Positions 1 to 29,474 of a stretch of 64,000 nucleotides of DNA are shown here, piece by piece. The stretch lies in NCBI RefSeq assembly GCF_014698235.1, contig NZ_JACJSP010000003.1:248001-312000 (forward strand). Direction: 5' to 3'. This DNA comes from Limnothrix sp. FACHB-406. Lineage in GTDB: Bacteria > Cyanobacteriota > Cyanobacteriia > CACIAM-69d. Each line of letters begins with the position of its first letter. Position 1 is the first letter of the stretch. Position numbers and translations under genes: made by a program. The notes below the pieces were generated by a model that saw nothing but the letters and a program-made list of their open reading frames with translations, did not search any database and was not told where the DNA came from.

Positions 1-44
1 CGCTTGCGCTTGCGATTGGTTCCTTCAAGAGTACGCTTGGTCAT
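1..44 (-). CDS. rpmH: 50S ribosomal protein L34, N-terminal fragment
   Basis: The minus strand reads ATG at 44-42 and then encodes MTKRTLEGTNRKRK before the left edge of the window. This is the conserved start of bacterial L34 (family consensus MTKRTLGGTNRKRKR), a short, very basic protein of the large ribosomal subunit. Only 14 codons are visible, and the rest of the gene lies outside. The upstream spacer (45-277) holds a TTGAAC/TATTTA-like stretch near 160-185 on the minus strand that could belong to its promoter, but this is weak. Confidence 0.85.
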   Translation of the reverse strand, partial: MTKRTLEGTNRKRK

Positions 45-277
45 GGTTGGGCTAGCTCCGAGTGGGCGATTGGCGGACTAAGCGTTGACCAAACGGGAGC
101 GGGGGCGATCGCACGGGAACGGTTCACGGCTGCACCCAACTGCTGTCTGGCTTGGCAGTCCATATAAATAGGTTCAACAAATTTTGCGCCTGTCTAGGTG
201 TTAGAAAGCGCGACTTTCGATGATATCACGAGCCGGTGCGTTGGTCGGAGATCCGCAAGTCGCGCGGGGCCGCGATT

Positions 278-526
278 CTATTGATCGGTGTTGTCGTCGG
301 GATTGCTGGGGGGGCGATCGGGAAAGTAGCCGGTCATTTTGCCCAGCACCAGGCCGCCGATGCCCAACACGCCTTTTTCAAACAGGCCTTTGAAGGTTTG
401 GAACAGTTCGGACTGTTGGGGATTGATCTGAGGCTGGTTGGCCAGGTGGATGGCGGCCCCACCCGAGAGGGCGGTGAACAAAACGGAGACGATCAGCAGT
501 TGTTGATAGATCTGGGGGCGTTTCAT
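278..526 (-). CDS. Small single-span membrane protein, function unknown
   Basis: This 82-residue protein starts at the ATG at 526 (MKRPQIYQQLL). An upstream in-frame start at 556 would add ten unremarkable residues. A hydrophobic stretch at about residues 8-28 (LLIVSVLFTALSGGAAIHL) looks like an uncleaved signal anchor or a signal peptide. A second, glycine-rich weakly hydrophobic segment (GVLGIGGLVLGKMTGYF) follows at about residues 52-68, and the tail is Pro/Asp/Asn-rich. The family was not recognised. The gene shares its strand with rpmH but is separated from it by more than 230 bases, so joint transcription is not evident. It could be a small cyanobacterial hypothetical of the thylakoid or plasma membrane, which is inference only. 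Confidence 0.6.
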   Translation of the reverse strand: MKRPQIYQQLLIVSVLFTALSGGAAIHLANQPQINPQQSELFQTFKGLFEKGVLGIGGLVLGKMTGYFPDRPPSNPDDNTDQ

Positions 527-645
527 GGGAGGTGACTCCGGTGATTTCTGGAACAATTCAAGGATTGCCCGAAATCGCTGAAACGTGGTCTGAGTAAAGT
601 GTCCGGGTTTTGTCAGACTGTCTGATTTTTGTCAAAGACATCGAT

Positions 646-669
646 CGCCCCGGCGAGATCGCCGGGGCG
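646..669. repeat. Perfect GC-rich inverted repeat
   Basis: Two perfect 11-bp arms (CGCCCCGGCGA and its complement) are separated by only two bases. No T-run follows on either strand, so it is not a classical intrinsic terminator. It lies in the 470-bp gene-free stretch 527-996, which also contains the MITE-like repeat at 699-829; nothing else was seen there. Confidence 0.7.
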
Positions 670-698
670 GGTGAGGTCGGTGGGGGCAACGGGTTTCG

Positions 699-829
699 GG
701 CCTGTCGTCATTTCCATCGCCGTAGGGGTTGGGTCTCCCAACCCTAACCTGAGCGATCGCCACAAACCTGTCCACCCCTGGGAACATGCCAGGATCACGG
801 GGACTGGGCGGGGAGACCCCGCCCCTACG
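699..829 (+). repeat. MITE-like element with GTAGGGG termini, copy 1
   Basis: The core at 721-829 begins CGTAGGGGTTGGGTCTCCC and ends with the inverse complement of CGTAGGGGCGGGGTCTCCCC, so its ends are imperfect terminal inverted repeats of about 19 bp. A near-identical copy lies in inverted orientation at 37271-37396. The similarity continues for about 22 bases beyond one terminus (699-720, GGCCTGTCGTCATTTCCATC), so the mobile or conserved unit is longer than the inverted-repeat core. There is no coding capacity. Two copies 36 kb apart in opposite orientation argue for dispersal rather than tandem duplication. Confidence 0.85.
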
Positions 830-996
830 ACTGATCGGTTGGGACAGCGAGATCATTAGGGTTTTGGGCGATTTGACGACAGGGTTTAAATCCCTTGTCT
901 GGGGAAAATAGCCGATCGCGCCTTGTTGCTCGCAGAATGGAGTTGCTTTCCCCCAAAGTCTCGTTGCGCGATCGCCGGTCTCTCAGGATTTAGTTC

Positions 997-1836
997 ATGC
1001 CTTCTCGATCGACTGAGGCGTACCAAACCCAAGCGGTTGATATTCATCCGGCGGCCGATCGCCTGTGGTTTGAGCTGTGGCGATCGCAGTCGATCGAGCA
1101 GCGCTGGCAACGGGTCTGTGGTTTGCAGCGTCAGGGGCGTTGTTTGGCTCTGTGGGCGGCTCGGCAGCGGTTGCCTGCAACGGCGACTGATTTGGCGATC
1201 GCTCAGGAATTTGCGCGGGCGATTTTGGGCGATCGGTTGGGCGATGGTGGTTCGGAGCGGTTGACCTATGGCGGGGATCCCATGACTTGGCAGCAAGATC
1301 AGTCGGCGATTTTGGCTCAACTGCATGAACTGTTTGAGCAGCGATCGATTCCCTACTTGGTGACTGGTGGGCAGGCGGCGATTATTTGGGGTGAGCCACG
1401 GTTTACGACGGATTTGGATATTTTGCTGGCGATCGATGGGGCGCAACTCTCGGCGCTGACCCAAACCCTGGAAGCGGCGGGTTTTTATGTGGCGGAACCG
1501 CTGCACCACACGATCAACATCATCCACCGCGATCGCATTGACAATGCCGATTTGATCCTGTCGCAGCAGACTCCGTTTGAACGTTCTGCGCTGGAGCGGC
1601 GGTATCGGGTGGAAGCGCCGGGGATTCCGGTTCACTACATTGCCACGGCTGAGGATGTGGTGTTGGCGAAGTTGTTGTGGCGGCGCAGTTCCCGATCGGA
1701 AAAGCAGTGGCGGGATTGTTTGGGCATTGTCAAAATTCAGGGCGATCGCCTCGATCGCGCTTATTTGGCGACTTGGGCGGAGCGGCTGAGTTTGGAGGAT
1801 GATTTGCGCGATCTGTTGGCGGCGGGCGGGCTGTAG
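997..1836 (+). CDS. Nucleotidyltransferase-fold protein (AbiEii/MNT-like), apparent fusion
   Basis: The C-terminal 180 residues carry a nucleotidyltransferase-fold signature: VTGGQAAIIWGEPRFTTDLD at about residues 125-144, with the paired acidic residues expected for metal binding (DLD). This resembles the AbiEii-like and 'nucleotidyl transferase' proteins of toxin-antitoxin loci. The first 95 residues (about 20-80: LWFELWRSQSIEQRWQRV and a following LALWAARQRLP) resemble a separate small protein that in many cyanobacteria is encoded just upstream of such nucleotidyltransferases. Here the two appear joined in one frame through a Met at about residue 95 (GGDPMTWQQ). The next gene, a NACHT NTPase, starts 68 bases downstream on the same strand. 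The substrate is unknown. The fold assignment is fairly sure; a role in defence is inference. Confidence 0.7.
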   Translation: MPSRSTEAYQTQAVDIHPAADRLWFELWRSQSIEQRWQRVCGLQRQGRCLALWAARQRLPATATDLAIAQEFARAILGDRLGDGGSERLTYGGDPMTWQQDQSAILAQLHELFEQRSIPYLVTGGQAAIIWGEPRFTTDLDILLAIDGAQLSALTQTLEAAGFYVAEPLHHTINIIHRDRIDNADLILSQQTPFERSALERRYRVEAPGIPVHYIATAEDVVLAKLLWRRSSRSEKQWRDCLGIVKIQGDRLDRAYLATWAERLSLEDDLRDLLAAGGL

Positions 1837-15561: not shown

Positions 15562-18500
15562 CTAAACCACTGCCGCCGCTCGATCGCCCGTTAACCGTTC
15601 AATGCTGGCCACCAACTCCGGGGTAACGTGGGGCTTCAGCATATAGTCTGCGGCCCCCAAACTCAGGGCCACCTGTTTATATTGCGTGCCGCTACAGGAA
15701 GTCAGCAGGATCACGGGCACTTGGGCGGCGTTGGGATGCTGGCGGCGGGCGTTTAAGAACTCTAAACCCGTCATGCGCGGCATTTCAATATCAGAAATGA
15801 CGAGATCAATATCGGAGCGCTGCCGAAGCTGGGTCAAGGCTTCCAACCCATCAACCGCTTGCACCACACGATAGCCCTGGCGCTCCAGGGTCAGGGTCAA
15901 AAGGCGGCGCTCGGTGTCGGAATCTTCCACCACCAGCAGGGTTTTGCTGCCTTGGGCGGTGGTGGGACTGTGGGGCGCGATCGGGGCATTGGGCAACTCA
16001 GCGGGCAATTCCGGCGCGATCGCTGGCGGAGCGGCGGGCTGGGGCAACTCCGGAGGCGCGGCAGCAACGATCGGCACGGCCTCGACTTGGGTCAACAGTT
16101 CGTTACCGTCGATCGCCAAGACCATGCGCCCATCGCCCAAAATGGTGCAGCCATAGATGTAGCGCGGGGCGGGCAGGGCTTCCGACAGTTGCCGCAACAC
16201 CAGTTCCTGTTCACCCACAACCCCATCCACCTCGATCGCCACGGGGGTGTCACCGGCATCCATCAACAGCAAGGGCGCGAGGCGATTGCTCAAAAATGGC
16301 GTGATTGCGCCCATGTCCGATCGCAACAGGCCCGGAGCCAAGGAACTGTAGCGCATCAGTTCCGCCAGTTTGCGAATGGGAATGGTGATTTCGGGATCTT
16401 CGCTGCTGGCTCGCCACCGCAAAATTCGCTGTCCCCCGAGCATTTGGGTTTGTTCCGGTTGAGGAATCAGAATTTGGCGGACGCTTTCTGAGGGCAGGGC
16501 GTAGGCCGCGCGATCGGCCTGGCAAACCAACAGGCGAGCGGTCATCAAACTCAGGGGCACGCGCAGAATGAAGGCCGTGCCACGCCCGGGACTCGATTGG
16601 ATGGTGACGGAGCCTTTGAGGGATCGCATTTGCGATCGCACCACATCCAACCCCACGCCGCGCCCAGACAAATCGGTGACTTTATCGGCGGTGGAAAAGC
16701 CCGGCTCAAATAGCAAATCCAAGAGGGCTTGGTCTGAGGCGGTTTGGGCCCGATCGGGCGTGAGCCAACCGCGTTCGATCGCCTTCTGTCGCAGCCGTTG
16801 GGGGTCGATGCCTTTGCCATCGTCGGCCACCCAAATCAACACATGGTTGCCCTGTTGTTGGGCCCGCAGCTCGATCGTCCCTTCGGCGGGTTTGCCCCGA
16901 TCGCGCCGTTCTTCCACCGCTTCAATGCCATGGTCAAAGGCGTTTCGCACCAGGTGCAGCAGGGGATCATAAAGCTGCTCGATCGCCACCTTGTCAATGG
17001 CAACCCGCTCCCCCACCACTCGCAAATGCACCGTTTTGCCATAGCGGGCGCACAGTTGCCGCACCAGGGGCCCGAAGCGATCGAACACGGCCGCCGCCGG
17101 TTGCATTCGGGTATCCATCAAACTGTCGCGCACCTGGCCCAATAATCGGCGTTGTTTGTCGAGGGTGGTGGCCGTTTGTTGGGCATAGCGTTCCACCACT
17201 TCCGCCGTGGAATCTAGCCGCTCGGCGCTGTCGAGGGCCGCATCGATCGACTGTTGCAAAATCAGATCGTTGGCACTGGTGGCGGCGGGAGAACCATTGA
17301 GCGATCGGCGATCGGTGGGACGCTTTTCCAGTCGATCGCGTGCTTCCGCCAGCAGGCGACGGTGTTGGCGCAGACCTTGGCGAAACCGTTCCAGGGCCGA
17401 TCGCAACTGTTCATCCTGCAAACTTTGACGATTTTCATTAATCAACAGCTCCCCCACCAGGTGTTGCAGGGATTGCAGCCGATCGATCTCCACCCGAATC
17501 AGGGGAGTTGGGGTGAGCGGTTTGCTGTCCACCCGTTGCGGTTCCGCCGATCGGGCCGGTTCCGGAGTTCCACGGGGGGCCGTTTCCGCCGTCACCAAAG
17601 GGGCAGGCGGGGAATTGGGCGGGGCCGGAACCGGTGCGGCAACGGGCGCTGGAGCAGGTGCGGCAACCGCAGGCGATCCCCCAGCAATCGGGGGGGCAGG
17701 TGTGGGAGCTGGCGGGGAATCCGTGGTCAGATCCAACGTGCCCTCGGTCAAGTCCAACCACCCGGCCGGCATCTCATCACTGAGATCCATGCTGAGATCC
17801 AACGTGCCCTCGGTCAAATCGCCCAGGTCTCCCGGTTCCGGCTCCTGACCCGCCAGGGCCGCCAATTCCGCCGACACTTCACCGCCTTGGGTGCGATCGC
17901 CCGCCAAAACCGCCTCTTGGGCCGCTTGCCAATTGCTTAACACCGCCTGGGCCACCACCAAGGGCCGATCGCCCTGGTGAGCCACGGCCTGGAGTGCCGC
18001 CTCCGCGATCGCCTGGAACCCCGGCAGCCCCAAGGATTCCCCTAAGCCCGTAAACACCTCCGATTGGGTGGCCACCGTTTCCAAGGCCGCCGGCCCATCC
18101 CCCGCCGCCACCAGCGTCGCCAACTGATCGATCCGCTCCTTCACCCCCGTTTCAAAAATCGACTGCACCAGGTCAAACCCCAGTTCAGCAGAGGTGGGCA
18201 ACTTTTGTTCGCGCTCAAAGCAGTCTCCCAACAGGGTTTGGATCCGGGCAAAGGCATCGATCGCCTGATCCAACACCTCTTGATCGGCCTCCCGTCCCTG
18301 TTCCCATTGGGTGGTCAGGGCCAAGCGCAAACATTCATAGAGCTGAAACAACAGCCCCTCCAGTTCCACCTCCACTTCCGCTTCCGGGTCAAACAGGGCC
18401 CGAAACACGTCCTCCATGTGGTGGGCGATCGTGGAGATGGTTTCCAACCCCACATTGGCGGAAGCCCCCTTCAGGGTGTGGGTGGCACGCATCAGGGCAT

Positions 18501-18624
18501 GGATCCGCTGTTTCGAGGGATCGTCGCGCAGTTGCAACAAATCCGTCTCGATCGATCGCAGCAGGTCTTGGGACTCACTGAGGAAGTATCCGTAGGCTTC
18601 CTCGCGGATGGCGGGATCGAGCAT
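15562..18624 (-). CDS. pixL: CheA-type hybrid histidine kinase (PixL/TaxAY-like)
   Basis: This 1020-residue protein is last in the four-gene phototaxis-type operon. Domains in order: Hpt with phosphoacceptor H49 (MRATHTLKGASANVG); a helical and Pro/Ala-rich linker (about 130-370); a dimerisation region; a HATPase (LLHLVRNAFDHGIEAVEER, ADDGKGID, SGRGVGLDVVRSQM) at about 540-690; a CheW-like domain (about 700-840); a second Pro/Ala linker; and a receiver domain with D945 in LVISDIEMPRMTG and a conserved Lys in MLKPH. Kinase plus receiver in one chain is typical of cyanobacterial PixL and PilL-type CheA proteins. It would receive signals from the upstream MCP through CheW and phosphorylate its own receiver and the PixG-like regulator, which sets type IV pilus motility. 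PixL rather than PilL is preferred because the MCP has photoreceptor-type GAF domains. Confidence 0.88.
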   Translation of the reverse strand: MLDPAIREEAYGYFLSESQDLLRSIETDLLQLRDDPSKQRIHALMRATHTLKGASANVGLETISTIAHHMEDVFRALFDPEAEVEVELEGLLFQLYECLRLALTTQWEQGREADQEVLDQAIDAFARIQTLLGDCFEREQKLPTSAELGFDLVQSIFETGVKERIDQLATLVAAGDGPAALETVATQSEVFTGLGESLGLPGFQAIAEAALQAVAHQGDRPLVVAQAVLSNWQAAQEAVLAGDRTQGGEVSAELAALAGQEPEPGDLGDLTEGTLDLSMDLSDEMPAGWLDLTEGTLDLTTDSPPAPTPAPPIAGGSPAVAAPAPAPVAAPVPAPPNSPPAPLVTAETAPRGTPEPARSAEPQRVDSKPLTPTPLIRVEIDRLQSLQHLVGELLINENRQSLQDEQLRSALERFRQGLRQHRRLLAEARDRLEKRPTDRRSLNGSPAATSANDLILQQSIDAALDSAERLDSTAEVVERYAQQTATTLDKQRRLLGQVRDSLMDTRMQPAAAVFDRFGPLVRQLCARYGKTVHLRVVGERVAIDKVAIEQLYDPLLHLVRNAFDHGIEAVEERRDRGKPAEGTIELRAQQQGNHVLIWVADDGKGIDPQRLRQKAIERGWLTPDRAQTASDQALLDLLFEPGFSTADKVTDLSGRGVGLDVVRSQMRSLKGSVTIQSSPGRGTAFILRVPLSLMTARLLVCQADRAAYALPSESVRQILIPQPEQTQMLGGQRILRWRASSEDPEITIPIRKLAELMRYSSLAPGLLRSDMGAITPFLSNRLAPLLLMDAGDTPVAIEVDGVVGEQELVLRQLSEALPAPRYIYGCTILGDGRMVLAIDGNELLTQVEAVPIVAAAPPELPQPAAPPAIAPELPAELPNAPIAPHSPTTAQGSKTLLVVEDSDTERRLLTLTLERQGYRVVQAVDGLEALTQLRQRSDIDLVISDIEMPRMTGLEFLNARRQHPNAAQVPVILLTSCSGTQYKQVALSLGAADYMLKPHVTPELVASIERLTGDRAAAVV

Positions 18625-22691: not shown

Positions 22692-25600
22692 CTAGCCGGC
22701 CTGTTGGGCGCTGGCCCTGGCGATCGCGCTGGGGTTCAACACCATACTGCTGGCCTCGCTGAGGTAGCCCTGAACAAAGGGCAAGAGCCGATCGGGAAAC
22801 AAACCCGCGCTGGGCGGCTGAACATTTGGAGAATCGTGCCACTCGATATCTTCAATTTGGGGCACGACCAGCCCCAGATTCTGGCCATCACACTCCAGCA
22901 CAATGGCGATGGCGGATGAGGTGGCCGTCAAATCCGGCGCAATGGCCGGGAAACCCACCAACTGGTTAAGGTCGATCGTCCAAATGATTTCACCGCGCCA
23001 GTTGTACACCCCTAAGACCGATTCTGGCATATGTGGCACGGGCAGAATGTCCGTGGCCGCAATTCGCAGCACTTCCCGCACTTCATCGATCGGGAGCAGG
23101 GCCGTATCCTCAAAGCCCAGGTGAAAACGCAGGAAACGCTGGCCATCGGTACTCAGGGCGCTGCCGGCCGACCTGGTGGGCAAGTTCAAAATGGCGGATC
23201 CGTCGCCCTGTTGCAGCCATTGGGTGAGCGGATCCAGGGGGGCGCTGGGTTCCGGCTCCGACGGGGCGATCGGGGCCGGCTCGGCCGCCTCCACCACCGG
23301 CAAGGGCGGTTCCGGCGCGCGAACCGATTCATCCACCAATTCACGAACCGGCGCAGGCTCGAAAGCCACCGCTGCCACCGGAGTCGCAGGCACTTCAGCG
23401 GCGGTGTCGGCGGCTAGGGCTTGGTTAGCAATGTCCACCAGGGCCGCGAATCCTTCATCCCCAAAGAACCCCGAAGGCTCATCGTCGTCATCCCCGAAAA
23501 AGCCCAAGGGTTGATCGTTTTGATCCAAATCTGGCCCCAGATCGGGTTCCGCATCGAAGGCGATGACGGCGGGGGCCTCCGGCAGCGACTCCACCAATTC
23601 CGGCAGCTCCGGCAGCTCCGGCAACGGCTCGGCGGGATCGGGTTCCGGTTCCTCAGGCAAATCCAGAACATCGGCCAACACTGGTAGTGGTTCTGGTAAT
23701 GCCTCTGAGTCGGCCGCTTCAGTCGATTCCGTCAAGGCATGAGATTCGGTGGCCTCAACTACCTCGGTGGGTGCAGCCGCTGCGATCGGCTCGGTGGATG
23801 CCGCTAACTCGGCCGCTGGGACAGATTCAGCAGGTTCCGCAGGGGCGATCGGGACAGGCTCCGGCTCGCGAGGGGCAGCCGACGCGCCATCACCCAAGGA
23901 TTCCGCCAGGGCCAGCAGCGCCGATCGGGGATCGCTGGACTCGGCTAATAACTGCGCCACCAAATTGACCAAACCGCTGCGCTCATCCGAAACAACGGTA
24001 GATTCCGGGGATTGCACCGGTTCGATCGGGTCGGATAATGGTTCGATCGGCTCTGAATTCACCGGCTCTAGGAATTCGGTGAAATTGGCTAGATCATCGG
24101 ATAAATCATCTAAATCATCGGTTGGATCATCTAGATCATCTGACTCAACTTCTTCAGCCAGATCAGTTAATTCAGCTAGATCATCTTCATCAACATTGGT
24201 TGGCTCGATCGGGTCTGATAAATCGGCCAAGTCTGATAAATCATCTGGCTCAACTTCCTCAGCCAAATCAGTTAATTCAGCTAGATCATCTTCCGCTAAT
24301 TCATTGGCTAAGTCGTCGGCCACCACCTCGGGAGAAGCTGACTCGATCGGGTCAGTTACCTCAACGGCCGTTGAATCTAAATTGGCCAAATTCGATAGAT
24401 CAGCCAGATCTGACAAATCGGATAAATCATCGGATAGATCCGAGAGATCCGAGGAATCGATCGCCTCTTCGGGTTCCACCCAATCCAGCGATTCGGATTC
24501 AGCATCTGCTGATTCAGCTAATTCAGCACTCTCTGCCAATTCGTCAACAATTGCGGCCGATTCAGAAATTACTGCCGATTCCGGGTCTGTCGATTCAGTG
24601 GAGGCCGCCGCTGCGGGAGGTGGTTCTGGTGGGGGAGCGATCGGCTCGGGGGCAAAGCCAGCCAAACGGGCGATCGTGGCGATCGCGGCGTTCAGATCCA
24701 AATCGCTGCGATGTTCTGCCAGTTGGGTCAGTTGCGCAATGGTGCTGAGGGCTTCCCGAGGGCTGATGGTTGTGGGTTCTGCAATCAGTTCCGCTGCGGC
24801 TGTGCCAGGTTGTGCGATTTCTGGGTCTGCACTGGCTGGTGGATTGGTTAGATCTTCACCCGCTGGATCTTGATCAAGCAGGCTTAATTCATCATCCAGT
24901 TCATCACCAAATTCATCGCTCGTTAATTCATCATCCAGTTCGTCACTCAGTTCATTGACCGTTGATTCATCACTCAGCTCATCGCTTGTTAATTCATCGC
25001 TCAGTTCATCGCCTGTTGATTCATCGCTCAGTTCATCACCCAGTTCATCGCTCGTTAATTCATCGCCTGTTAATTCATCACTCAGCTCATCACCAAATTC
25101 ATCGCTCGTTAATTCATCACTCAGTTCATTGCCAAATTCATCACTGAGCACATCACCTGTTAACTCAATATTTAGTTCACCAGTCAACTCATCACTGCAT
25201 TGATCGTCAAGTTCATCACTGGTTAATTCATCATTCAGTTCCCCGATCGGGTCAGCCTCTTCCTGAGTGAGTTCTGCAATTTCTGGTGATTCCGGTAGCT
25301 GATCTAGAGTGATTAACTGGTCAGAGTCCTGCGCATCAATCAAATCAGTCGAGTCACTCAATTCATCTGATTCAGTCAAATTCAATTGCAAATCACTGAG
25401 GTCTTGATCGATCGGTTCGGGATCAGTTAGTTCCTGAGTTTCTGGATCAACGATCGTCGAATCCAGTAATTCTGGATTGGGGAATTCTGGATCGGGTAAT
25501 TCCAGATTCGCTGAATCGATCGCAGCTTGCTCTCCTTCATCTAAAGGTTCTGAGGAGGGTTCCGAGGAGGGTTCGGGCGATCGATCTGAAGGGGGTGGTT

Positions 25601-27362
25601 CCGGCGCTGCCACCGGGGGCGGACTGGCCAAGGCACTCAACCGGGCGATCGCCGCCAACGCCGTGTTCACATCCGCGTTGGGATGATGTTCCACCAACTG
25701 CACCAGACTGCTGATTGCGTCGGTCACTTTTTCAGCGATGGTTTTGCTGTTGTCTGAGGCGATCGCAGCCAACACTGTCCCGATCGGCTCTGATTCTGGC
25801 TCTAGCTCTGGCGTTGGGGAAATTTCCGTTGACTCCGTGGGCGGCTCTGCGAGGTCGATCGGGTCGATCGCTGTTTCTCGATCAAAGTCCAGGCTCGCCC
25901 CGTCATCCCCCAATGCGTCAGGGGATTCCAGCAAATCTGCCGTTTCTTGTGCCGCATCTGCCAAGGGATCCAGCAGCTCGGAATCAGCCGCCAACTCGGC
26001 CACCAGTTCCGCCGCTTCATCAATGACTTGATCGATCATTTCGTCGATCATTTCATCAAGCGCGGCATCGCTGGCGAACTCATCAATCGGGTCTTCTGAG
26101 TCGATCGCCGGTTCCACCAAGGTTGGCAGCTCAGGCAAGGAGTCGATCGCCGGTTCCGGTTCTGGAGCTACGGCCTCGGAGCTGGGTTCCGCCATCCCTT
26201 CTTCTTCGATCGCGGCCCAGTCGGCTAACTCTGCTTCGGTGAGGGCCAAGGCATCCGGATCCAGGCTGAGGGTCTCCGGTTCTAGGTCGCTGGTTTCCTC
26301 TGAGGGCAACGAATCTAGGGCATCGATCGCCCCTAAATCCTGTTCATCCACCGCGAAATCGGGTTCCTCGGTTTCTGATGCGAGTTCTGGTGCTGGCTCT
26401 GGCTCTAGCGGTGACTCAACAATCGCCCGCTCTGGTTCTGTGATGGGTTCCGGCTCGGGTGGTGATTCGAGGATTTCCACCGGTTCAACGGCCGGCGCGA
26501 TCGACTCCGCAGCACTTAACTCCGCAGCACTCAACTCGGGAGCTGCCAACGGCGATGGAGCGATCGACCCCACAGCCGTGACCAGAGAAGCGGCGGCCTT
26601 TTCCAGGGTGCTGGCCAAACCCGTCAGGGCGGCCAGGGTGGCTTGCAGTTGGGCTGCTTCAGTGGGAATGGGCAACGGTGGCGTTGGTACTTCTTCCGGC
26701 GTGCTGACTTCCGGCGTGCTGACTTCCGGGGTGATCGGCTCTGGGGCGATCGGGTCTAAATCCGGTCGGTCAAGATCCGTTGCCGCTGACTGATTGCAGT
26801 CCTCGGTTACATCTTCGGTTGTGTCTTCTCCCACCTCGATCGCGGGTTCCGGATCGATCGCGGGTTCCGGTGGGGCCACCGCAACCCCATGACCATTTTG
26901 GGACTCTGGCCCAGCAACACCCGACAGGACAGCCAAGGGCGGATCGCTGATCAAGGCCGCCACCCCATTGGCCATGCTTTGCACCTGGGACTCCAAGAAG
27001 TTGACGATCGGGTCTGCTTCCTGATCGCCACTTTGGCCATAGGGCAAGGGCGGCAAGTCGATGTGATAGCACCATTTGGGCGATCGCTCATCCAGCGCTT
27101 GGCCGCCCACTTTCACCGATTGGATCACAGCCCGGTTCAATCCGGCCACGGCCAAATCCTCGATCGCCGGCTCAACGGTTTCCAAGGCCAAGCGGGCCGA
27201 AGGAGCTTGCTCACTGGCCAGCAGCAGATATAAACATCCCTCCTTCAAGGCCGCCTTCACGGTAATGGTCGGTTCCAGTCGATCGCGAATGAGCAGGGCG
27301 ATCGCCTGGGGATTGGCATCCAAAGCCTGCTGAATCAATGCGGTTTGCTGCTGTGCGTCCAT
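22692..27362 (-). CDS. Giant CheW-like adaptor with acidic low-complexity insert (PixI-like)
   Basis: At 1556 residues this is roughly ten times a normal CheW. Residues 1-105 form a small alpha/beta domain (ALIQQALDANPQAIALLIRD, GCLYLLLASEQAPS) seen at the start of various cyanobacterial proteins. Residues about 1390-1556 are a CheW domain (FLRFHLGFEDTALLPIDEVR, HMPESVLGVYNWRGEIIW, GLVVPQIED). Between them lie over 1,100 residues dominated by Glu, Asp, Ser, Pro, Leu and Ala, with SDELTGDEL-type repeats at about 715-825. Three hydrophobic helical modules are embedded near residues 541-580, 864-903 and 1124-1158, each with an L..(I/L)..L.....D.(R/N).A(L/I)..IA..L pattern. The frame is uninterrupted. 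Position between the PixG-like regulator and PixJ matches pixI/taxW1. The insert probably makes an extended acidic linker or scaffold, which is inference. Confidence 0.85.
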   Translation of the reverse strand: MDAQQQTALIQQALDANPQAIALLIRDRLEPTITVKAALKEGCLYLLLASEQAPSARLALETVEPAIEDLAVAGLNRAVIQSVKVGGQALDERSPKWCYHIDLPPLPYGQSGDQEADPIVNFLESQVQSMANGVAALISDPPLAVLSGVAGPESQNGHGVAVAPPEPAIDPEPAIEVGEDTTEDVTEDCNQSAATDLDRPDLDPIAPEPITPEVSTPEVSTPEEVPTPPLPIPTEAAQLQATLAALTGLASTLEKAAASLVTAVGSIAPSPLAAPELSAAELSAAESIAPAVEPVEILESPPEPEPITEPERAIVESPLEPEPAPELASETEEPDFAVDEQDLGAIDALDSLPSEETSDLEPETLSLDPDALALTEAELADWAAIEEEGMAEPSSEAVAPEPEPAIDSLPELPTLVEPAIDSEDPIDEFASDAALDEMIDEMIDQVIDEAAELVAELAADSELLDPLADAAQETADLLESPDALGDDGASLDFDRETAIDPIDLAEPPTESTEISPTPELEPESEPIGTVLAAIASDNSKTIAEKVTDAISSLVQLVEHHPNADVNTALAAIARLSALASPPPVAAPEPPPSDRSPEPSSEPSSEPLDEGEQAAIDSANLELPDPEFPNPELLDSTIVDPETQELTDPEPIDQDLSDLQLNLTESDELSDSTDLIDAQDSDQLITLDQLPESPEIAELTQEEADPIGELNDELTSDELDDQCSDELTGELNIELTGDVLSDEFGNELSDELTSDEFGDELSDELTGDELTSDELGDELSDESTGDELSDELTSDELSDESTVNELSDELDDELTSDEFGDELDDELSLLDQDPAGEDLTNPPASADPEIAQPGTAAAELIAEPTTISPREALSTIAQLTQLAEHRSDLDLNAAIATIARLAGFAPEPIAPPPEPPPAAAASTESTDPESAVISESAAIVDELAESAELAESADAESESLDWVEPEEAIDSSDLSDLSDDLSDLSDLADLSNLANLDSTAVEVTDPIESASPEVVADDLANELAEDDLAELTDLAEEVEPDDLSDLADLSDPIEPTNVDEDDLAELTDLAEEVESDDLDDPTDDLDDLSDDLANFTEFLEPVNSEPIEPLSDPIEPVQSPESTVVSDERSGLVNLVAQLLAESSDPRSALLALAESLGDGASAAPREPEPVPIAPAEPAESVPAAELAASTEPIAAAAPTEVVEATESHALTESTEAADSEALPEPLPVLADVLDLPEEPEPDPAEPLPELPELPELVESLPEAPAVIAFDAEPDLGPDLDQNDQPLGFFGDDDDEPSGFFGDEGFAALVDIANQALAADTAAEVPATPVAAVAFEPAPVRELVDESVRAPEPPLPVVEAAEPAPIAPSEPEPSAPLDPLTQWLQQGDGSAILNLPTRSAGSALSTDGQRFLRFHLGFEDTALLPIDEVREVLRIAATDILPVPHMPESVLGVYNWRGEIIWTIDLNQLVGFPAIAPDLTATSSAIAIVLECDGQNLGLVVPQIEDIEWHDSPNVQPPSAGLFPDRLLPFVQGYLSEASSMVLNPSAIARASAQQAG

Positions 27363-27962
27363 CGCCCACGTTCTCCCACATCCAAAAACCCAATTTTTAA
27401 TTGGCCGTCCTGGCCCGCCTCGGCTGACGCTTCAGCCGGAACCCGGCCATGGTGCAGGCCCCGGCCCATGAACAATCCATGGTTCAGTGTCCCGAACCCG
27501 ATTATTTCTCTCAATTCCAGGCCCCACGGGCCCAATGGCAACCCCAATCGCACACCCTGATCATTGCCGGACTGATGCCTAATCACTGGTTGATCAATTC
27601 AATTAGCTGGGATTGGTAGCTGGGATTGGCTTGATCATCGGTTGGGTCATTGCTTAGGACATCGGTTGGATCAGTAGTTTTAACTTGCCCCGATCGCCCC
27701 TGTTTGATATCGATCTCGCAGCTTTCAAATTGTCAATTTCCTGCAAGAATTGTGGTTTTTTGTTGATGAACCTCAAGCTGAACCTCAATCCCAATTCAGT
27801 GCAAATGAGACTCAATCGGCTTGATTTTTCATGGCTTACCGATCCATCTGTTACATCCGTCTGTCTCAACGGATGAACTTAAACCCCAATCCCCACATAG
27901 TCCCCACATACAATTCCCACATCCCGATCGAGCGTAGGTGGCAACCCCATACAATCCTTTCT
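27363..27962. other. 600-bp gene-free spacer in the phototaxis operon
   Basis: No convincing gene is present between the giant cheW-like gene and the PixG-like gene; short open frames here lack family features and ribosome binding sites. A run of similar 9-12-base units (CCCCACATA, CCCACATAC, CCCACATCC) lies at 27890-27925. The size leaves room for an internal promoter for the downstream three genes, but none can be named with confidence. Confidence 0.5.
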
Positions 27963-29453
27963 CTATTGTTTCGCCAAAACTCCAAATTCATAGCGATTGT
28001 TGAGCATTTCTTCACCGAGTAAGTATCGATTCAGGGGGCCGGCGTTGTTGGGTTGAATGCCAGCGGCGGGGGCCGGATGCCAGCCACCACCATTGCGCGG
28101 CGGTGTGGGGAGGGTGCCTGCGGTTGTTGGCGAGGGTTGTGGTCGTTGGGAATTGTCCTGGGGTGGCGGTTGCAATCGATCGGGCAAATATTGCTGAAGC
28201 AGCGCAGCCACCTTTTCCAGGCGCAGAGGCTTGGGCACAAACACCGAAGCCCCAACCAGCTTGGCCCGCACCCGGTCGATCGCCCCGCGATTACTGGTGA
28301 CAATCGCGATCAGCACATTGGCCAACAGGTTCACCCGTCGCAACTGGGTACAAAGCTCATAGCCATTCACAATCGGCATCACCAAATCCAGCAACACCAT
28401 ATCTGGTCGCTGCTCGATCGCCGCCGCCAAGGCCCTTGTCGCCTCCGTGATATGCACAAACCGACAACCCAAACGATGCACCACAGGGCGCAGCAGCTTG
28501 CCCACCATCGGATCATCGTCAATCAACATCACCAAGGGCTGTTCAGAGTTGGGGGCTTGGGTTGCTGGAGTGGGCTGGGGTGTTGGGGTCTGGGTCGCCG
28601 CCGGCCCACCCGATCGCCCTGGAGCAGTGGCGGCTCTGTCCCGGGGCGCTGCGGACTGTGGGGGCTTAACTGGCGCTGCTTGCGGCGTGAACAGCAAATT
28701 CAGCACCGTATCCGCCGGGCGATCGTCCAAGGGCAGAAAATCCAAGCCCCCACGCTCCACCAAGTGATGCAGCAGATGCACGACGATCGACATGGGCTGT
28801 TTCATCACCAGCGAGACATCCCAGGTCGATCGTTGACCATTCAGCAACGGAGCCAACGTTAAAAACGTCGATCGGTCATTTTGAGTTGTTGCGGACGGAG
28901 ACCAATCCAACTGGGCCAACTGCGGCGCGCGATCGGCCTGCTCTGGCGACAACCCCACCGACTCCCACCGTTGCAGCAACTTCACCACCGACTGCATCAC
29001 CGCCAACAGGGCCTCACTGCCGAGCAACTGTTGCGCCACCGCCCGCGTGTCCGGCAAAGCGGGCACATACTTATCCCAGTGAGACACCACCGTGGGATCA
29101 CTCGCCGCCGCAAACAGCACCTCCTGAGCCACCGACTCCAGCACCGAGTGCAACTGGGCCGGTGTGACTTGGCCCGCCAACAGCGCCGTCGCCAACCACC
29201 ACACCTCCCATAGGGGCCGTGCCGTTTCCGTCAGCGGAACCGGCTGCAAATTCACCCCCGATCGCTTCAGGGCCCGTTGCCAACGGCGAATCCGAAACTG
29301 CTCATCGATCGCCCACAACAAGCGACCCTGCAAAAAAATCAAGCGCCAGCGACTCGGCCCCCGCTCCAGCACCAACACCCCCGAAGCCCGTCGCTGCACC
29401 ACCGTCGCCAGCGTCCGCGACACCTTTGTCCATCCCGTTGCTGCTTCAGTCAT
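27963..29453 (-). CDS. pixG: PatA/PixG-type response regulator
   Basis: The start is the ATG at 29453 (MTEAATGWTKVSRTLATVVQ), giving 496 residues. The N-terminal half (about 1-265) is a PATAN/DUF4388-like region (RASGVLVLERGPSRWRLIFL, GRLLWAIDEQF) found in PatA, PixG and PilG proteins. After a Pro/Ala/Thr-rich linker, a receiver domain (about 305-430) has LIDDDPMVG, the phosphoacceptor D356 in MVLLDLVMP and the switch Lys in VPKPL. An unusual extra C-terminal tail of about 70 residues (Pro/Asn-rich, ending LNNRYEFGVLAKQ) follows. It is the first gene of the operon and the likely output regulator controlling type IV pilus-based movement. A separate PixH-like single-receiver gene, normally next, is absent. 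Confidence 0.85.
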   Translation of the reverse strand: MTEAATGWTKVSRTLATVVQRRASGVLVLERGPSRWRLIFLQGRLLWAIDEQFRIRRWQRALKRSGVNLQPVPLTETARPLWEVWWLATALLAGQVTPAQLHSVLESVAQEVLFAAASDPTVVSHWDKYVPALPDTRAVAQQLLGSEALLAVMQSVVKLLQRWESVGLSPEQADRAPQLAQLDWSPSATTQNDRSTFLTLAPLLNGQRSTWDVSLVMKQPMSIVVHLLHHLVERGGLDFLPLDDRPADTVLNLLFTPQAAPVKPPQSAAPRDRAATAPGRSGGPAATQTPTPQPTPATQAPNSEQPLVMLIDDDPMVGKLLRPVVHRLGCRFVHITEATRALAAAIEQRPDMVLLDLVMPIVNGYELCTQLRRVNLLANVLIAIVTSNRGAIDRVRAKLVGASVFVPKPLRLEKVAALLQQYLPDRLQPPPQDNSQRPQPSPTTAGTLPTPPRNGGGWHPAPAAGIQPNNAGPLNRYLLGEEMLNNRYEFGVLAKQ

Positions 29454-29474
29454 CGATGGACACTCCCAATCCAA

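Follow-up and report, generated by a model that had tools for sequence, protein, structure and literature searches.

Chemosensory arrays are usually pictured as rigid lattices in which CheW is a small wedge. A gene of Limnothrix sp. FACHB-406 that encodes a CheW protein of 1556 residues raises the question of whether such a giant adaptor is real and, if so, what its length might be for. We examined it within a window of 64,000 nucleotides (contig NZ_JACJSP010000003.1, positions 248,001 to 312,000), and all coordinates refer to that window. The gene is a single frame of 1556 codons on the minus strand, with its ATG at 27362 and its stop at 22692. An earlier reading of the window, made from the sequence only, had placed the gene at 22692-27362 without giving a strand; those coordinates stand, and the minus strand is now established. 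The frame and a Pfam match likewise bear out the unbroken 1556-residue frame with a C-terminal CheW domain. The encoded protein consists of an N-terminal alpha/beta domain, a polyacidic linker of ~1,270 residues, and the CheW domain (Table 1).

Table 1. Features of the giant CheW gene and of its operon neighbors
Feature	Window coordinates	Residues	Strand	Basis
Giant CheW (PixI-type adaptor), 1556 aa	22692..27362		-	Open frame; Pfam CheW; purifying selection; 6/6 order genomes
N-terminal alpha/beta domain, no Pfam entry	27048..27362	1-105	-	Predicted confident fold; dN/dS 0.05
Polyacidic, mostly disordered linker	23235..27047	106-1376	-	Composition; charge-hydropathy; K/R depletion
Hydrophobic island M0	26565..26654	237-266	-	Identical in G001; G003-G005 have a similar segment in a comparable place
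Helical-hairpin hydrophobic module M1 (predicted)	25617..25751	538-582	-	Homologous to M2
SDEL/DELT tandem repeat array	24884..25129	~745-826	-	Tandem Repeats Finder
Helical-hairpin hydrophobic module M2 (predicted)	24639..24773	864-908	-	100% identical in G001
Hydrophobic island M3	23883..23999	1122-1160	-	Kept in G001 and G002
Hydrophobic single-helix island M4	23403..23468	1299-1320	-	Similar segment in G003 and G005
W-L-x-x-G motif directly before CheW domain	23205..23234	1377-1386	-	Common to short orthologues
CheW domain	22725..23138	1409-1546	-	Pfam match; 71-100% identity across order; groups with PixI-type CheW
PatA/PixG-like response regulator (DUF4388 + receiver)	27963..29474		-	Pfam
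PixJ-type receptor: four GAF (cyanobacteriochrome-like) + MCP signalling domain, no membrane segment	18776..22306		-	
PixL-type CheA (Hpt, HATPase, CheW-like, receiver)	15562..18624		-	Pfam

Exactly one giant was present in each of the six genomes of the order that were examined, which are mostly drafts (the present genome and five designated G001 to G005). The proteins are 1556, 1586, 1390, 1321, and 1826 residues long in five of these genomes. In the draft genome G002, one frameshift within a Glu-Pro-rich stretch splits the gene (L070:9595-14239) in two, leaving frames of 916 and 634 residues that overlap. The linker is 1,030 to 1,520 residues long in all six genomes, that of G004 including 33 unread residues, and the CheW domains of the giants are 71 to 100% identical. 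The split gene in G002 is what a mis-assembly or frameshift joining separate genes might look like, but the probability of such an artefact is negligible, and fusion through mis-assembly is ruled out, by six separate assemblies with the frame open in five, indels between close pairs that are all whole codons, an acidic composition that is alike in all six, and one giant per order genome. The grounds for doubt raised from the sequence only, namely a frameshift, an assembly collapse in the repeats, or the absence of the insert from relatives, do not apply, because comparable inserts are present in all close relatives. These inserts also support the earlier description of a CheW-like array adaptor with a long flexible acidic chain and embedded hydrophobic modules. 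No paper on giant CheW proteins was recognized in searches of the open-licence literature, in which Limnothrix and phototaxis occurred together in just two papers, as co-mentions.

CheW was the sole Pfam family in the giant (residues 1410-1546, 75.6 bits, E 3.9e-21, curated cut-off 23.5) when matches at E values up to 1 were considered; the chain contained neither a kinase nor a receptor domain. In a CheW-domain tree whose deep split is weakly supported (44/79), the giants formed one clade (99/98) placed among the PixI-type rows, apart from Hmp-type (HmpC-type) CheW and from the CheA P5 domains, which formed their own clade (99/99). The tree took in three CheA P5 domains from the same genome and left out ParP sequences. 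The receptor-contact groove of T. maritima CheW is hydrophobic, and we take its residues to be L14, V27, I30, and V33; when the giant was aligned to that protein, V27 and I30 fell on Val or Ile, V33 was beside a gap, and L14 lay beyond the aligned part. The motif that precedes the CheW domain reads WLQQG, WLDQG, or WFEQG in the giants and WLKSG, WLESG, or WLDSV in short orthologues. By its CheW match, its place in the tree, and the operon described below, the giant is accepted as a member of the PixI-type CheW family, with exceptional size. PixI-type CheW proteins of the Synechocystis pix/tax1 and Nostoc ptx loci likewise have a CheW domain, hold the same place in the operon, and are the nearest sequence relatives, but they are ~160 to 310 residues long, in contrast to the 1,321 to 1,826 residues of the giants with their polyacidic insert.

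The surroundings of the gene are those of a phototaxis operon. The order PatA-like regulator, giant CheW, GAF-MCP receptor, and CheA is kept in G001 to G004. There was no PixH-like gene and no Rfam match to an RNA element within the ~600-base gap (27363-27962) that separates the regulator from the giant CheW, the place of pixH in Synechocystis. The GAF domains of the receptor match solved PixJ photosensor domains and, as their sequences read, each bears a Cys followed by His or Tyr at its bilin site; the search pattern catches three, and the first reads SACHVQLIE. A membrane segment was looked for in the receptor and none was found, so that this receptor appears soluble, in contrast to Synechocystis PixJ1, which has two membrane segments (PMC4758948).

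The nearest orthologues outside the order (L079-L082, L111; 286 to 312 residues) consist of the N-domain and a CheW domain, joined by a short linker that bears a W-L-x-S-G-like motif, with no insert. Because these short proteins hold both end domains, the insert arose by expansion of a linker of ~10 to 30 residues between domains that were already joined. The best listed matches to the giants' CheW profile outside the order were frames of 289 to 313 residues. A search of cyanobacteria for long CheW proteins, as had been suggested, recovered giants in all six order genomes and, among the ~150 matches listed, none outside the order longer than 409 residues.

The composition of the linker is extreme. 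Over residues 106 to 1378 it contains 27.1% Asp plus Glu, 1.3% Lys plus Arg, 11.8% Pro, and 9.3% Ser, with a net charge of -329, in agreement with the more than 1,100 Asp/Glu/Ser/Pro-rich residues first noticed between the two domains. In a charge-hydropathy plot, a form of the disorder prediction that had been proposed, the linker comes out disordered and both ends folded, save for folded-like islands that sliding windows place around residues 222-296, 529-579, 856-925, 1125-1189, and 1307-1358. SDEL-type repeats had been claimed at 24895-25210, and Tandem Repeats Finder detected arrays nearby, at 24884-25129. The SDEL/DELT array is 70% identical to that of G001 and variable in length.

Between the window and G001, dN/dS was 0.34 in the linker, against 0.05 in the N-domain and 0.00 in the CheW part, and gaps were always whole codons. 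The linker value between G003 and G005 was 0.17, which is approximate since dS is near saturation. Single-base nonsynonymous differences that involve Lys or Arg were rare in the linker, at 2 of 119 between the window and G001 (12.5 to 13 expected) and 2 of 141 between G003 and G005 (15 to 17 expected), a depletion of about sevenfold in two independent pairs (p 2e-4 to 4e-6). Across the six orthologues the net charge ranges from -292 to -425, or -0.24 to -0.30 per residue, and the proline content of the linker from 4% to 17%. Because Lys and Arg are depleted and charge per residue is steady while proline is variable, the chain is upheld as a polyanion, not as a fixed sequence. These results demonstrate that the linker is under selection for negative charge and against positive residues, and such selection supports a functional scaffold or tether. 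The earlier interpretation, a scaffold that might phase-separate the array at the cell pole or bind basic pilus motor proteins, is therefore partly supported. A PixI-type adaptor has been lengthened about tenfold throughout the Limnothrix order, with a chain selected against positive charge. The whole order has put roughly 300 to 400 negative charges on every phototaxis-array adaptor and has kept them.

Five hydrophobic islands interrupt this chain. The sequence-only reading had described three similar modules. All three positions (M1, M2, and M3) hold, whereas similarity could be shown for M1 and M2 only, and two further islands, M0 and M4, had been overlooked. A profile built from M2 alone finds M1 (22 bits, E 6e-7; the best score among 700 block-shuffled proteins was 8.7 bits) and single or double copies in three distant orthologues (22 to 28 bits). 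The M2-type module is kept in G003 and G005 and occurs twice in G004. A profile built from M3 alone finds neither M1 nor M2 and matches only M3 itself within the genus. Therefore, among the three claimed modules, M1 and M2 alone are considered homologous. AlphaFold2 predicts a helix-turn-helix hairpin for the M1/M2 family with moderate confidence (pLDDT ~80 over the helices, pTM 0.42). Searches of the same genome and of 386 cyanobacterial genomes gave no significant match to the M1/M2 module outside giant CheW proteins (marginal matches at E 0.004 to 0.009). Against Pfam, PDB sequences, and PDB folds, the modules matched nothing of weight. The possibility that the modules are copies of the helical hairpin of the N-domain was ruled out (hhalign probability 0.2%). 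The searches also gave no match of weight to a module elsewhere in the genome or phylum that might serve as a docking partner.

AlphaFold2 predicts a fold for the N-domain with pLDDT above 90 over residues ~10 to 100 and the topology a-a-b-b-a-b-b. There was no significant match among PDB folds and no Pfam or PDB-sequence match of weight; resemblance to ring-building and KH-like folds was set aside as weak (E above 0.1). Of 291 cyanobacterial genomes sampled, 41 contained relatives of the N-domain, in tandem or, as their sequences read, joined to kinase, ankyrin, TPR, ATPase-like, or SGNH-like parts or to membrane segments (loci including L119-L126). Thus, the N-terminal cyanobacterial alpha/beta domain proposed earlier is predicted to be present, but it is a promiscuous cyanobacterial domain found in many other proteins and not specific to the phototaxis system. 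It seems to be an interaction domain of general use. In two proteins of other cyanobacteria (L118:1228-4725 and L120:1473-4334), neither of which has a Pfam family, the N-domain is followed by an acidic chain of ~700 to 950 residues and a membrane segment.

A PixI-type adaptor that has been rebuilt as a tether-scaffold for a cytosolic photoreceptor array is the explanation we hold most likely, tentatively and at a little less than an even chance, because the giant has a ParP-like plan and an acidic chain that recalls those of HubP/FimV and PopZ. The CheW domain would take its place in the ring that receptor tips form with CheA, and the N-domain, already present in the short ancestor, would bind a putative partner. 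The polyanionic chain of 1,000 to 1,500 residues would hold the two ends of the adaptor far apart yet joined, and the hydrophobic helical islands may provide several weak docking or self-association sites per adaptor. Given a receptor without membrane segments, the adaptor would draw the cytosolic array together as a loose charged cluster and keep it near its partner, for example, pili at a septum or pole. Array insertion, tethering, clustering, and location of the giant are what we infer, and the maintenance of islands within an otherwise disordered chain is consistent with these roles.

In ParP of Vibrio the N-terminal domain binds ParC, the long linker is proline-rich, and the C-terminal CheW/P5-like domain becomes part of the core unit (PMC5706961). 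The giant has in common with ParP an N-terminal partner domain, a long linker, and a C-terminal SH3/CheW-like array domain, and ParP shows, by analogy, that such a plan can work (PMC5706961). However, the array domain of ParP is nearer to CheA P5, whereas that of the giant is a PixI-type CheW and its linker is polyacidic; no homology is claimed. Membership in ParP was rejected, since the tree places the giant's array domain among PixI-type CheW sequences and away from the three CheA P5 domains of its own genome. HubP/FimV has a very long acidic cytoplasmic chain that is like the giant's linker in composition, varies greatly in length among relatives, holds imperfect acidic repeats in HubP, and may be required for array placement (PMC12918733). 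The giant is not a member of that family, because it has no LysM or FimV/TPR domain (Pfam) and no membrane segment. The PopZ linker of Caulobacter, in which negative charge tunes condensate mobility, has a net charge per residue of -0.28, within the range of the giants, but it is only 78 residues long with 23 to 29% proline (PMC9512792). There was no PopZ C-terminal oligomerisation domain in the giant (Pfam, only CheW at E up to 1), and membership in PopZ is likewise rejected.

Several observations weigh against a tether-scaffold. The N-domain occurs in unrelated proteins, like-charge repulsion opposes self-association of such chains, and the giant was found only in one small order (six genomes). 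Furthermore, a Synechocystis pixI mutant kept positive phototaxis, unlike other mutants of the locus, and the adaptor function may for that reason be partly dispensable (PMC4758948).

Another possibility, which we consider unlikely but still a contender, is that the chain is an electrostatic brush or spacer without a specific client. The ~330 negative charges per adaptor would maintain the solubility of the cytosolic array and prevent it from mixing with the second, Hmp-type array or entering the nucleoid, and the islands would only compact the chain. Selection that acts on charge more than on sequence, a constant net charge per residue while length and proline vary, and a soluble receptor all speak for it, and Myxococcus arrays can be positioned relative to the nucleoid (PMC6952110). 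However, sequence conservation in M0, M2, M4, and the motif next to CheW is well above that of the remaining linker, which a pure brush does not require.

It is also conceivable, but improbable, that the chain acts as bait that binds basic partners, such as pilus motors or regulators, through complex coacervation, in line with the binding of basic pilus motor proteins suggested in the earlier reading. The extreme negative charge with depletion of Lys and Arg fits this idea, but the operon contains nothing strikingly basic; its CheA and receptor have about 10% Lys plus Arg and 13 to 14% Asp plus Glu.

Quite improbable, too, is that an unimportant linker grew in a largely neutral way through tandem duplications, which the cell tolerates since an acidic disordered chain does no harm. 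The variable length of the repeat arrays, the numerous in-frame indels, and the linker dN/dS of 0.34 in the closest pair might be explained in this way. However, dN/dS is well below 1, positive charges are strongly depleted in both independent pairs, islands are conserved, and 1,030 to 1,520 linker residues have been retained in all six genomes.

Should the chain serve to position or cluster the array, the giant would be a built-in organiser for cyanobacterial phototaxis, converging on ParP and HubP in one protein, and the short and giant orthologues would provide a clean natural comparison for the study of acidic disordered chains in bacterial signalling clusters. It is possible, but rather unlikely, that the adaptor is its own organiser. 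A single polypeptide would then combine array insertion by its CheW domain with partner binding and with a selected polyanionic chain of several islands, and array assembly itself would nucleate a condensate that positions a cytosolic array for light sensing with no need of ParP, ParC, or HubP.

Long acidic chains also occur elsewhere in chemosensory systems. In the second, Hmp/Pil-type CheA of the same genome (L138:2080-7557 on contig C22, minus strand; 1825 residues), the phosphotransfer and dimerisation regions are separated by a long linker that is likewise acidic. There the acidic chain is on the kinase, whereas in the giant it is on the adaptor, and homology of the linkers is not claimed. 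The Hmp/Pil-type receptor (L138:8056-12093) is likewise acidic, with 18% Asp plus Glu, and a CheA of another family (L074) has 2209 residues with 22% Asp plus Glu.
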